Part shown: in pieces, positions 28,881 through 42,236 of the stretch | Position numbering within the stretch: the first letter of the stretch is position 1 | How the letters are laid out: every line of letters begins with the position of its first letter | Assembly: GCA_002049455.2 (NCBI GenBank) | Contig: KV919029.1 | Span: 45,664 to 109,663, forward strand | From: Porphyra umbilicalis | Taxonomy: Eukaryota > Rhodophyta > Bangiophyceae > Bangiales > Bangiaceae | DNA: 64,000 nucleotides | Direction of reading: 5' to 3' | Made by a program: the position numbers and the translations under genes | Notes under the pieces: model-generated | The model's database searches: none | Told to the model about the DNA's origin: nothing | Seen by the model: the letters and a program-made list of their open reading frames with translations, nothing else

Positions 28881-30916
28881 TCAGCTTGGTATGCTCCTCC
28901 TCACTCCGTGTCTCCGCTCACGCGCCCAGAGCATGCCCAAAAGTGCCTGCGGGCAGCCAGGCGACAGGCGCAATGACGGGGGGGGGGGGGGCACCCGCGC
29001 CCACGAAGCCGTCCCCAGCGTCGTGGCCATCGCTACCGACGGCACCATCGCCGTTGGCACCAGATCCGCCGCCGCCGCCGGCTCCACTGTCACCGGCGGC
29101 GCCGACAATCCAACGACCCTCAGCTGCCGCCGCACCAACGCGGTGCCCCAAACGCCCCGGGCCGCCGCTGCCGGCCGCCTGACCGCCGGCAGCGGCGGCG
29201 GCAGCAGATCTACCACCGCCCGCCCCGTCCCCACCTGGTGCCGGTCCTGCCGAGCGGCCGCCATCGGCCGCCTGACCGCCGGCGGCGGCAGCAAGAAGTG
29301 CGCCAACACCGCCGCCGCCGGCCGCCTCGCCAGCACCGGCGGCGGCAGCAGCCAATCCGCCACCGACCACCCCCGCACCACCAAGCCCCGGTCCTGCCAA
29401 GCCGCCGCCGCCGGCTGCCTGACCGCCGACGGTGGCGGCGGCAGCAGATGCCCCCGACCCAGCTCCCCCACCACCCTGTCCCGGTCCCGCCAAGCCACAG
29501 GCGCCGGGTGCTTAACCGCCTGCGGCGGCGGCGGCAGCAGAATCCCCCGAGCCACCTCCTCCACCACCCTGTCCCCGTCCCACCAAGCCGTCGCCGCCGG
29601 CCGCCTGACCGCCGGCGGCGGCAGCACGAAGTGATCCAACACCGCCGCCGCCGGCCGCCTTTCCAGCGCCGGCGGCGGCAGCAGCCAATTCGCAACCTGC
29701 CGCCCTCCCACCACGAAGTCCCGGTCCCGCCAAGCCGCCGCCGCGGGCCGCCTGACCGCCGGCGGCGGCAGAGGCAGCAGACCACCCCGCCCCCGCTCCC
29801 CCACCACCCTGTCCCAAACCCGCCAAGCCGCCGCCGCCGGCCGCCTGACCTCCGGCGACGGCAGCTGTAGAAGCTTCCCCCACCCCCGCTCGCCCGCCAC
29901 CCTGTCCCCCACCTGCCAAGCCGCCGCCGCCGGCCGTCTGACCGCCGGCGGCGGCAGTGGCAGAAGATCCCCCCGCCCCCGCTCCCCCACTACCCTGTCC
30001 CTCACCCGCCAAGCCGCCGCCGCCGGCCGCCTGACCGCCGGCGGCGGCAGGGGCAGAAGATCCCCTCGCGCCCGCTCCCCCACAACCCTACCCGCCAAGC
30101 CGCCGCCGTCGGCCGCCTGACCGCCGGCGGCCATACGGGTGCGGGACACGTACCCGTCTCGTCGCTGTTCCGTAACCATGTTGTGAAGGATGGCCACCGC
30201 CTTGGTGACGGTGACCATCTGCGCTACGGAAGCGTACCTGGCAGGATGGAGAGCGACGTGGAAGCGAGCCGTCAGCTCCGCATACAGGCGTTCCACATCT
30301 TTTCGAAGTGCTTCCTGAAGACGGTTAAATGTAATCTCGACTTCTGTCGTGGGGTCGGGGAACGTAGAAACGAAAAATGCAAACCTAGGATAAATACCAT
30401 CCACAAGATAATACAGGAGCGTGCGGGTCGTGCCGTTGGCAGTGAAATAAAACGTACGGGGCGGCCATTCCCCGTTCTTGACGCCTCTCCATACGCAATG
30501 ACTTGAAACGCCGCTACCACATTTCGCAAGGGGTGAGCCTGGAGCCTCCCAGTGGCATTAATGCGCTGTGCAAAAAACGGTCGGTCCTTCACGGCGTTGT
30601 AGACCCGAAGAAACACGCTGCGCGGCACGCGGAAGCGGCGTTCAAAGTCCCGCCCATCATACACAGGCGGCTCCCCGTTCAGACCAAAATAATCTCGCAG
30701 AATAGCGCGCAAACCTGAGCGGAAGTTACGCCGCTTATTCGGCCGGCGGCCCGGTACAGATCCAACATAACGGGGCCGCCGGGACACCCAAGACCCTCGC
30801 GCGCGCTTCCGCCAATGATCCAACGCCTGCAGGTGCGCCGCAACCGCCGAAGCAATATGCAGGTCCTCGGTATCCTCCAGCATCGCGTCCGCAGACATGT
30901 CGAAAGGTTCATCCAT
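28881..30916 (-). pseudogene. PIF/Harbinger-type transposase lacking its catalytic centre
   Basis: The N-terminal part (from ATG 30916, MDEPFDMSADAMLEDTEDL) reads GSVPGRRPNKRRNF, DYFGLNGEPPVYDGRDFERR, RVPRSVFLRVYNAV and AYGEAS. The frame then changes near 30480 and resumes at FTANGTTRTLLYYLVDGIYP and ALRKDVERLYAELTARFHVA. Compared with the copy at 16607-18109, roughly 390 bp is missing, including the segments with both catalytic Asp residues. The C-terminal tail is a 31-residue coding minisatellite (29150-30130). The 3' half keeps a 500-codon open frame despite the deletion. Confidence 0.8.
29150..30130 (-). repeat. Coding minisatellite, 93-bp unit, in the transposase tail
   Basis: Units carry CCGCCGCCGGCCGCCTGACC followed by a GCCGGCGGCGGCAG block and a variable spacer. 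In the best-aligned part the landmark recurs at 29846, 29939 and 30032, exactly 93 bp (31 codons) apart. On the minus strand each unit encodes a variant of LLPLPPPAVRRPAAAAW plus a charged linker. The spacing is kept in multiples of three, consistent with former coding constraint. Confidence 0.8.
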
Positions 30917-36072: not shown

Positions 36073-38687
36073 ATGCCGATGGCGTTTGTCGGGGGCGCCC
36101 TCGTGGCGCCCCCGTGGGCGTCGGCGGCCCCCCGCGCGGCGCGCGGCCGGCAGACGACCACCGCCGCCGCGGCAGCAACAATGGCAGCGTCGACAGTAGC
36201 GGCGGCGACGGCGTCGGCGGCGGCGGCGGCGGCGTTGTGGCCATCCCTGGCGGCCACTGCCGCGGCGGCGGTGGGCGCGTCCCCCCCCCGGCGCCCGCGC
36301 GGGCGCGGTGGGGCGCGCCCGCCCCCGCCCCCGCCCCCGCCCCCGCCGCGGCGCCCGCCACCCGCCCCACCGCCGGCAGCGGCGCGCGGTCGCGCGACCG
36401 CCGTGGCGCGGCGCGGACGGCCGTCGTGTGGCTCCACGCCGGCTGCCTCCGCGTGCACGACAATGCGGCGTTGGCGGCGGCGGCGGCGCTCGGCGGCGGC
36501 TGGGCGGTCGTGCCGGTGGCAACGGTGCCGCCGGGGGGGGGGGGGGGGGGGTCACCGCCGCCACTGCTGACCTCGGGCGCTCCCTGCGCTCGCGGGGGAG
36601 TGACTTGCTCGTCGTCTGTGGTGGCGGGGGCGGGGGAGGCCGCGCCGCGATTGACGCCGTGTGCGCGGCGCTCGGCGCCGAGGTGCTCATTGCGTTTCGG
36701 CCACGGCTGGCGCCGGCGGCGCCGGCGGGGGGGGGGGGGGGGCGTCCCTCTCGGCGCGGCGGACGGTGTGGGTGACCGCGTCGGCGGTTGGCGCGGCGCC
36801 GCTGCCGCCGCCGCCGGCGCTGCCGCCGCTGCCGGCATTGCCGGCGGGGCTGCTCGGCAGCCTCCCCGGCGCACCCGCCGCCGCCGCCGCCGCCGGGGGG
36901 TTGACGGGCGGGGCGGCAACACTGCCCGTCCGCCGCGGCTCGGACGCGGGCGAGACGGCCGCGAGGAGACGACTCGCCGCTCACGTGGCGCGGGTGTCCC
37001 CGCCCGCCACCGCCGCCGTGCGGGCGCCCGCCGTGGCGGCCGTGGCGGTCATGGGGGCCTTTCCCCGGGAGCTCGCCGTCGGCTCCCTGTCGCCGTGCAC
37101 CATTGCGTCTGCCGTGCGGCGGGCGGCGGGCGGCGCCCCCACCCCCCGCGCGACGGCCGTGGCACTCGGCGCCGTCTCCCCCACCGCCGCCGCCCTGTCG
37201 GGCGTGGCCGCCTACGAGCTCCGCGGCGGCGTGCGCAAGCGCCTCGTGTGGGACGCGACGGACGGGGACGGCCGGTTTGTGTTGCAAGACTCGGTGCGCC
37301 CCGACGGTCCGTCGGGGGAACTGTTTGGCACGCACGGCGCGGCGGCCGACGCGGCCGCGTCGGTCGTCCACTTTTTCACAAACGCCTTTTTCCCCGAAGA
37401 CGTGACGCCCGACTACTACTCCTTCACCGCGTGGCGGTTTTTCCAACGCTGCGTCTCCGCGACGGTCGGCGTGTTTGGCACGCAGGCGCTGCTGCTCGCG
37501 CTCGGCATCAAGTCGGGGCGGTTGGGCCAAGCGGCGGCCATCTCGTGGGTGCTCAAGGACGGCCTCGGGCGCGTCGGCAAGATGCTGTGGGCGGGGTCGG
37601 TCGGCCGCGACTTTGACGTTGACCCCAAACGCTGGCGCTTCCGCTCCGCCCTCATGTACGCGGCGGGGAATGGCCTCGAGATTGTCACGCAAATCTTCCC
37701 CGCCTCCTTTCTGGTCGTGGCGACGGGCGCCAACACGCTCAAGCAGGTGTCCATGCTGACCGCGTCGGCGACGCGCAACGCCATGTACCGGTCGTTTGGG
37801 GGCAAGGCGCAAAACATTGCCAACATTACGGCCAAGGGGGAAGCCCAAATCGTCGTTGCCGACTTGATCGGCATGACGTGCGGCATTCAACTGTCCAAGG
37901 CGCTCGGCGCGGGCAAGGGCCGCCTCGGCAACATCAATGTGTTCGCCGCGTACGTCTTGCTGTCGGCTATTGACGTGCTCGCCATCTACCAGGAGCTGCG
38001 GCAGGTCGTGTTTCGGACCATCAACCCGGAGCGGCTCGGCATGACGGTCGCCGCCTTTGTTGCCGACGGCACCGTGCCGCCGCCGCCGGTCGTGTCCCGC
38101 CGGGAGCCCATCTTCCTCCCGCCCGTGTACGACCACCGGCGCATTTTCGTGCCACTGAGCCGCCTCACCGCCACGCCCGCGGAGCTGACGCGGGCGCTCC
38201 ACGGGTTCCGCGGCGAAAAGTACGCCATCCACTGCGTGCGGGGGGGGGGGGCGCTGCCGACGGCGCCCTCACATGCAAGGTCGCGTTGCGGGAGGATGCG
38301 ACGAATTTGGACGTGCTGCGCTCGATGCTTGCCGTCGGGTACGCTTCGTTTGTGCCCGCGCCAGCGGGCGGCGGCGGCGGCGGTGGTGGTGGCGGCGGCG
38401 GCGGGTGGCCCGCCGCCGCCGCCGCGGCGCCACCCACCGACGGCCGGGGCGTCGTGGCGGCGGGCGCCGCCGCCAAGGCGCCGCCCTTTTTTGCCCCCAT
38501 GCCCCATGTGGCGCGCCTGTGGCGGCGGCGGCGGGCCGCTGTTAATGGCAACGTGCACGCAGCGGTGGTGGCGGCCAACCAGCGGGCGACGCGGACGGCT
38601 GGGGCGTTTTTGTCGTCGCTCCGGGCCAACGGGTGGGACGTGGACCACCTGCTGCTGAGCACCATCAAGCGGCGGGCGACGTGGTAG
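36073..38687 (+). CDS. Apparent fusion of a cryptochrome/photolyase-like region with an RUS (DUF647) domain; frame changes at homopolymers
   Basis: The likely start MPMAFVGGALVAPPWASAAP leads into an Ala/Thr/Arg-rich plastid-type targeting peptide. Next come photolyase N-terminal blocks: TAVVWLHAGCLRVHDNAALA (36420-36480), LGRSLRSRGSDLLVVCG, AIDAVCAALGAEVLIAFRP, and FPRELAVGSLSPCTIASAVR, which resembles the LSPYLALGCLSPR segment. The second half is a clear RUS domain: EDVTPDYYSFTAWRFFQ, AISWVLKDGLGRVGKMLW, DVDPKRWRFRSALMYAAGNG and LGMTVAAFV, with a C-terminal VALREDATNLDVLRSMLAVG. Frames switch at C9 (36281-36289), G19 (36533-36551), G16 (36727-36742) and G12 (38240-38251), so homopolymer length errors are likely; otherwise it is a pseudogene. 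Plant RUS1/RUS2 act in plastids and affect UV-B sensitivity. Most of the FAD-binding domain is absent. Confidence 0.7.
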
Positions 38688-40439: not shown

Positions 40440-42236
40440 ATGGCGGAAGCGTATGTTGTCGCGTGAAACTGAAATTGCGTCGTTGCCGACGCCAGACGCG
40501 TTGTCCACCGTCTCGTTTCCGAGCGTGTCCCCGTGTGACGTGCTGGAGTTGCTTGAGACTTCTACGCCAGTTACCTCCGTGCGCGCTCTATACGAGCCCA
40601 TCTTGTTTTTGCTGTGATGTTTCAGACGTGTCGATTATCACCTTGCTGACCTCATCCTGTTCCTGCATCATTGTGGTCGGTTCCTGCGACTGTGTGCACC
40701 TTGTGTTTCTTGTTGCTGATTGTATTTGGTAAGCAGTAACGGCGCTGGCGCGGCCTCCGCCGAGGCTGCCGCGCCTGCGCCGGCGACCGTCGCCGACCCG
40801 TCTGGCGTTGCCGGCGGTTCGTCCACGGCCCTGGGTGATGGCTCTGAGATCACCACGAACTACACCGAGGTCCACGAGACCTTCGATGATATGAACCTGC
40901 GCGAGGAGCTGCTGCGGTATGTTAAGGGGGCTTCGTTCTCTGTTCGTTGTATGTGTATTGCCGGTCGTGGTGACGGTCAGCAGTGCGGTACAGAGAGGTG
41001 AATGGTGCACTGCCTCGTTGGTGAAAGCAACGTCTTCGTGGTCGCTTACGGCCAGTTGGAAGCTGTACAATGGATGCTGACATTCTTCCATTTTCGTCCC
41101 GACTGCTGGTTCTTGCACATATGTATGCACCTTTTTCTTCGGTTCACAGTGGCATCTACGCGTATGGTTTCGAGAAGCCGAGTGCTATCCAGCAGCGTGC
41201 CATCATGCCGCTGATCCAGCACCGTGACACGATTGCGCAGGCGCAGTCCGGTATGGGCAAGACCGCGACCTTCTCCATTGGCGTGCTCCAGAACGTTGAT
41301 ACGTCCGTCCGCAAGGTGCAGGCGCTCATTCTGGCGCCAACCCGCGAGCTGGCCCAGCAGATTCACAAGGTCGTCCAAACGCTGAGCGACTTCATGTCCA
41401 TCTCGTGCCATGCGTGCATTGGTGGCACCCGCGTAATGGAGGACGTGCGCGTCTTCCAGTCGGAGACCCCCCACGTGGTGGTGGGCACCCCTGGCCGCGT
41501 GTTTGACATGATCCAGCGCCGTGCCCTCGACACTGGCAGCATCAAGGCGTTCTGCCTGGACGAGGCCGACGAGATGCTCAGCCGCGGCTTCAAGGAGCAG
41601 ATCTATGAGATCTTCCAGTTCATGCCGGCAACTTGCCAGGTGGGCCTCTTCTCGGCCACCATGCCTGACGACGTGCTGGAGATGACGCAGAAGTTCATGC
41701 GCGACCCGATTCGCATCCTTGTCAAGAAGGACGAGCTTACCCTGGAGGGTATCAAGCAGTTCTATGTGGCGGTGGAGCGCGAAGACTGGAAGCTTGAGAC
41801 TCTGTGCGACTTGTACGAGACGCTTAACATCACGCAGTCGATCATCTACACCAACACTCGTCGTAAGGTCGAGTGGCTGGTTGCCAAGATGAACGAGCGC
41901 GACTTCACGGTCTCGTCGCTGCACGGTGACATGGACCAGAAGGATCGCGACATTATCATGCGCGAGTTCCGCACGGGCTCCACCCGTGTGCTCATCACGA
42001 CGGACCTGCTTGCTCGTGGCATTGACGTGCAGCAGGTGTCGCTTGTGGTCAACTACGACCTGCCGACCAACAAGGAGAACTACATTCACCGGATTGGCCG
42101 GTCTGGGCGTTTCGGGCGCAAGGGTGTTGCCATCAACTTCATCACGACCGACGATGCCCGTGCGATGCGCGAGATTGAGGAGTTCTATCAGACGACGATC
42201 GGCGAGATGCCCATGGACGTGTCGAACCTCATCTAA
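40440..42236 (+). CDS. ATP-dependent RNA helicase eIF4A
   Basis: Three exons: 40440-40450, 40737-40916 and 41150-42236 (introns of 286 and 233 bp, both with GTATGT donors and phase 2). They encode 425 residues. The N-terminus is [15 protein letters not shown], a flexible Ala-rich stretch. DEAD-box motifs run in order: Q motif [13 protein letters not shown], motif [53 protein letters not shown] and [13 protein letters not shown], ending MPMDVSNLI. eIF4A unwinds 5' leaders as part of eIF4F in cytoplasmic translation initiation. Two oddities: motif I has Met where eIF4A usually has Thr (SGTGKT), and exon 1 is only 11 nt. Intron 1 ends AAGCAG, an in-phase tandem acceptor (40733 or 40736). Confidence 0.96.

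Follow-up and report, generated by a model that had tools for sequence, protein, structure and literature searches.

What would a fold derived from DNA photolyases do at the head of a RUS protein? The question is raised by a gene in a 64,000-nucleotide stretch of the Porphyra umbilicalis genome (contig KV919029.1, positions 45,664 to 109,663; hereafter the window, meaning the whole stretch that was analysed). The gene lies on the plus strand at 36073..38687, from an ATG at 36073 to a TAG stop codon at 38685-38687, and encodes a conceptual protein of 869 amino acids (aa) spanning four homopolymer frame breaks. RUS proteins are present in most eukaryotes, and in plants the family is tied to tolerance of ultraviolet-B (UV-B) light and to vitamin B6 balance. 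The protein joins a photolyase-derived N-terminal domain to a full RUS domain, and such N-domains are conserved across red algae as one clade. In our reading, which we hold to be probable (about 60%), a truncated photolyase module persists on a plastid RUS membrane unit in a non-photochemical role, regulatory or docking, following a single old red-algal fusion.

A preliminary description of the locus, made from the DNA letters, had proposed a photolyase N-terminal fold fused to RUS, and Pfam searches bore this out. The RUS domain (PF04884, DUF647; 37360..38067, +) scored 198.3 bits in the raw frames and 197 bits in the joined protein (cut-off 28.3), and a search of the genome (84 Mb, 665 contigs) placed it identically. 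Upstream lies the photolyase-derived domain (36417..37125, +), consisting of the alpha/beta domain, a linker and the first helices of the flavin adenine dinucleotide (FAD) domain. Its PF00875 match stayed under the cut-off of 26.6 bits in the raw open frames (18.4 bits, E 0.0021) and rose barely above it after joining across the homopolymers (27.7 bits at full length, 29.5 bits for the N-part); photolyase similarity is thus present in 36400-37160, where it had been expected. The start of the FAD-domain region had rightly been recognised from GET and LAVGSLSP: the GET motif lies at 36949..36957 (+), and in the alignment with photolyases FPRELAVGSLSPCTIASAVRRA (37060..37125, +) is the counterpart of TSxLSPYLxxGxLSxR, with the TSxxS part lost. 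Most of the FAD domain is missing, again as described; PF03441, the FAD-binding domain, was matched nowhere in the joined protein with E values allowed up to 10, in a search whose filters drop most weak matches. The protein begins with a poorly conserved Ala/Pro-rich leader (36073..36416, +; 46-50% identity to the relatives P0003 and P0004), a possible plastid transit peptide, and closes with a marginal UVB_sens_C domain end (PF24160; 38538..38684, +), whose best-matching part corresponds to positions 110-156 of the 156-position profile and which passed the cut-off of 20.7 bits in the joined protein only (21.4 bits, against 14.8 in the raw frame). The complete RUS domain and UVB_sens_C-like end are shared with the RUS/DUF647 family (Arabidopsis RUS1-RUS6), while the added N-terminal domain, unmentioned in the portions of the RUS-family literature available, sets the protein apart. 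A search of NCBIfam in three frames gave no matches, and a PDB search with the joined window N-part as a single sequence gave nothing significant (best E 2).

The joining of the two parts could itself be an artefact of assembly or frame reading, since the window copy carries four frame breaks and its raw-frame PF00875 score is weak. The four homopolymers named earlier were all recovered in a survey of such runs: C9 at 36281-36289, G19 at 36533-36551 within the alpha/beta domain, G16 at 36727-36742 and G12 at 38240-38251 (all +). Third-position GC content favoured frame 0 at ~36300-36540, frame 1 at ~36780-38220 and frame 0 again at the gene end, and was indecisive for the leader and the short frame-2 stretch 36552-36726. 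However, in related algae the same fusion is encoded by single open reading frames (ORFs) with both PF00875 and PF04884, among them P0003 (907 aa) and P0004 from Pyropia vietnamensis (919 aa, on a 1.37-Mb contig). Transcript-derived ORFs also run through both parts: P0058 comes from an MMETSP source, and P0038 and P0049 seem from their labels to be transcriptome ORFs. One-frame homologs therefore reject an assembly artefact for the family, and we regard the artefact as hardly conceivable. Because P0003 and P0004 each encode the protein in one ORF, the frame breaks in the window copy are best explained by errors of sequencing or assembly, or else by recent damage. Across the whole window 63 homopolymer runs were counted (C/G of at least 8, A/T of at least 9), so that further genes in it may be frame-broken as well.

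The fusion is not confined to Pyropia, as fused homologs occur across the red algae. With the RUS part as query, 137 matches were obtained, and all homolog counts rest on the 120 listed. The fused set comprises 62 of them (P0001-P0061 and P0064); because rank and a long N-part decided membership, the completeness of the set is in part built in. Most of these proteins carry no species name; those named come from Pyropia vietnamensis (the closest named protein among the matches listed, with a RUS part 94.7% identical to that of the window protein), Chondrus crispus, Galdieria phlegrea (by label), G. partita, G. sulphuraria, Gracilariopsis chorda, Agarophyton chilense, Porphyridium purpureum, Rhodosorus marinus and Cyanidiococcus yangmingshanensis. 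A precomputed PF00875 label, from a Pfam model independent of the fused-set profiles, is found on 25/62 fused-set proteins among the matches listed; PF03441 is precomputed on 0/120. The preliminary description, which knew of no described protein with this architecture, missed that databases already contain such fusions, including a G. partita entry whose name begins 'Photolyase/cryptochrome alpha/'.

N-termini of at least 220 aa from 56 fused-set proteins and the window protein could be aligned as one domain. A hidden Markov model (HMM) built from these 57, which contains its own members, recovered six shorter fused N-parts at E 1.4e-19 or better. Among the 58 listed RUS proteins outside the fused set, 10 have no N-part longer than 30 aa; the other 48 had testable N-termini, and none of these was matched (best E 0.048). 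An HMM of 41 photolyases matched 53/63 fused N-termini (the 62 and the window) at E<1e-3 and 55/63 at E<0.01, and none of the 48 other RUS N-termini (best E 1.7); as 40 of the 41 photolyases had been fetched with a fused-protein profile, this HMM leans to the fused set and is not fully independent. The eight it missed were P0001, P0018, P0030 and P0053, which have short N-parts, and P0037, P0060, P0061 and P0064; the cyanidialean P0061 was tied to the Galdieria protein P0047 at E 5e-6. In the predicted structure of a Galdieria relative the fold of the N-domain was mostly confident, and a structure search matched it to the photolyase/photoreceptor fold. Profile, HMM and structure matches together rule out chance similarity to photolyases.

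The comparison of the 57 fused N-parts with 41 photolyases (40/42, longer than 380 aa, plus the alga's own PHR2) separated residues that are kept from residues that are lost. The R and the D of LRxxDN and the Glu of GE are each present in 57/57 fused proteins and the Gly of LxxG in 56/57, and two linker prolines occur in 55/57 and 56/57, against 7/41 and 19/41 photolyases. In contrast, the Asp of WFRRDLR is found in 12/57 fused proteins vs 39/41 photolyases and the TSxxS motif in 0/57 vs 36/41; most of the NRxYEPxxRD segment is gone (R and D columns gapped in 47/57 and 48/57, Asn being the commonest residue at its position, 29/57), the loops after strands 2 and 5 are deleted or variable, and nothing of the FAD core follows the first FAD-domain helices. 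We assume for these residues their usual roles in FAD and antenna binding. The fold-keeping residues thus survive, whereas most cofactor-facing ones have gone, a pattern that speaks for a structural or docking role or for use with a new ligand. It is a clear case of a photolyase fold retained after loss of its flavin half.

The same columns bear on two photochemical alternatives. An antenna-type chromophore or a flavin in the alpha/beta part might sense UV-A or blue light and relay the signal to the RUS unit. In favour of this, the domain has a photoreceptor fold, Asn remains the most frequent residue at its position in the NR pair, rus1 and rus2 mutants are hypersensitive to UV-B, with root growth blocked under weak UV-B (PMC4585147, in the text available), and the action of Chlamydomonas RUS1 is described as light-dependent in the accessible part of PMC13115044. 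Against these stand the absent FAD core and TSxxS, the rarity of the WFRRDLR Asp and the loss of the loops and of the rest of NRxYEPxxRD, presumably the antenna-facing elements. A light sensor seems unlikely to us, and the antenna binding suggested in the preliminary description found no support. An active photolyase recruited to plastid membranes is highly improbable. PHR2, whose FAD domain is shortened, reportedly repairs DNA in Chlamydomonas (PMC4564169, in the text available), but the same text states that Arabidopsis PHR2 shows no repair in chloroplasts, and the fused protein has neither a PF03441 match nor the FAD motif. That DNA repair was unlikely had been anticipated, and in our reading the fused protein is not a repair enzyme; photoreception by its domain would be hypothetical. 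From the cryptochrome (CRY)/photolyase (PL) family, for example Chlamydomonas CraCRY (6fn2), it differs by this missing core and motif.

PHR2/PPL proteins are similar in plan, also having an alpha/beta domain and a cut-short FAD domain (~95 aa in plants, according to the accessible text of PMC4564169); unlike the fused domain, which is attached to RUS, PHR2 stands alone and has a strong PF00875 match. The alga's own PHR2/PPL-type gene (C132:177578-178285) ends shortly past the first FAD-domain helices, with 163 bits to PF00875. Since this gene is distinct, the N-domain is not simply the alga's PHR2. Against the fused profile PHR2 scored 86.7 bits, the alga's other photolyases 33.1 or less (two of them broken or cut pieces) and profile-selected bacterial photolyases up to 94 bits. 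In a tree of 31 hand-picked N-domain rows, 12 fused N-domains formed one clade (100/99) and PHR2 was the nearest sampled row, the other 18 grouping at 95/81, with one PHR2, no CRY-DASH and 8/31 rows of unlike composition. Any kinship with PHR2 is accordingly tentative. As far as the available text of PMC4564169 goes, PHR2 is a clade close to CRY-DASH, its FAD domain is short, and it is said to be absent from non-green algae, a statement with which the red-algal stand-alone gene contrasts; the accessible part of PMC9498864 places PHR2 in some red algae and mentions red-algal CRY/PL members that fit no subfamily. A chrysanthemum PHR2 acts together with a transcription factor (PMC10663108, in the text available).

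The N-domain might also be a slowly decaying passenger, limited to spacing or to helping RUS fold. It evolves much faster than RUS (67% vs 94-95% identity to P0003/P0004), it is missing from the 48 testable N-termini outside the red-algal set, and a second red-algal RUS paralog (C201:42608-43592) has a reduced HUP-type N-domain that resembles an eroded photolyase alpha/beta domain and is probably a further eroded version of it. Nevertheless, Galdieria, Chondrus and Pyropia all retain the domain, some of its residues are the same in 57/57 proteins, and its predicted fold is mostly confident; we consider a passenger rather unlikely, about as much so as a light sensor.

For the regulatory or docking module that we favour, the following course is proposed. 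The whole alpha/beta domain, linker and first FAD-domain helices, without the FAD-binding core, form the N-terminus of a putative plastid protein. By analogy with a published proposal for a plant RUS4, the RUS part may be a six-helix membrane unit resembling half a major facilitator superfamily (MFS) transporter: predicted models show six long helices, the cotton RUS4 model has six membrane helices similar to half a melibiose permease, perhaps as a dimer (PMC10943365, in the text available), and in the accessible part of PMC13115044 the model of Chlamydomonas RUS1 has four membrane helices and a likeness to transporters of ions or solutes. Weak Foldseek matches of the second paralog include MFS transporters. 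The photolyase fold may be kept for contact with a putative partner or small ligand and thereby control the RUS unit, whose plant counterparts serve UV-B tolerance and probably vitamin B6 balance. The match list includes the universal stress protein TeaD, whose title assigns it to a transporter; a transporter with a HUP-type regulator is to that extent plausible. The fusion was most likely a single event that preceded the divergence of living red algae. Secondary algae of red descent may since have lost the domain, and in the second paralog it has probably eroded further. In two RUS trees of hand-picked rows (40 and 33), non-red relatives (Ectocarpus, Phaeothamnion, Rhizochromulina, Vitrella, Chromera and unnamed ones) nest inside the fused set (94/85 and 86/80), as expected if the gene came from a red alga and then lost the domain.

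Several points weigh against this course. The structure model is that of the Galdieria relative rather than of the window protein, with a whole-chain predicted template modelling score (pTM) of 0.53; some other mode of chromophore binding is conceivable for an isolated alpha/beta domain; and the conserved residues may serve fold stability only. The approximately unbiased (AU) test does not reject the fused RUS proteins as one clade (p 0.074), and domain loss in secondary algae is therefore not shown.

More tentatively, and doubtful as yet, both red-algal RUS paralogs may stem from an ancestor with a photolyase-derived HUP-fold domain ahead of a plastid half-transporter. This domain would sense light, redox state or a nucleotide- or B6-like ligand and so gate or modulate transport, and plant RUS proteins would have lost it, using separate partners such as PHR2 or CRY-DASH. 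Literature searches, with most subscription papers outside their coverage, gave no paper linking photolyases with RUS/DUF647; four that contain both photolyase and a RUS name draw no link in their accessible text, and the red-algal cryptochrome paper retrieved with Pyropia does not mention RUS. An old natural fusion, kept through red-algal history, offers a tangible clue to the function of RUS proteins. As a Rosetta stone it suggests a hypothesis testable in plants: does PHR2 or CRY-DASH meet RUS1/RUS2?

A weak match was also obtained to chain Ff of a trypanosome mitoribosome assembly intermediate (7pua/7pub; 'DNA photolyase, putative'), a possible further reuse of the photolyase fold outside repair, which differs from the fused domain in its role in ribosome assembly. 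Elsewhere in the genome, C3:288061-288552 encodes a divergent photolyase, perhaps of class II, with a long Gly-rich tail. The window further contains a DEAD-box helicase in a single open frame (41070-42236, +; PF00270, PF00271) and a transposase-like ORF (28884-30404, -; Plant_tran, PF04827, 63 bits).
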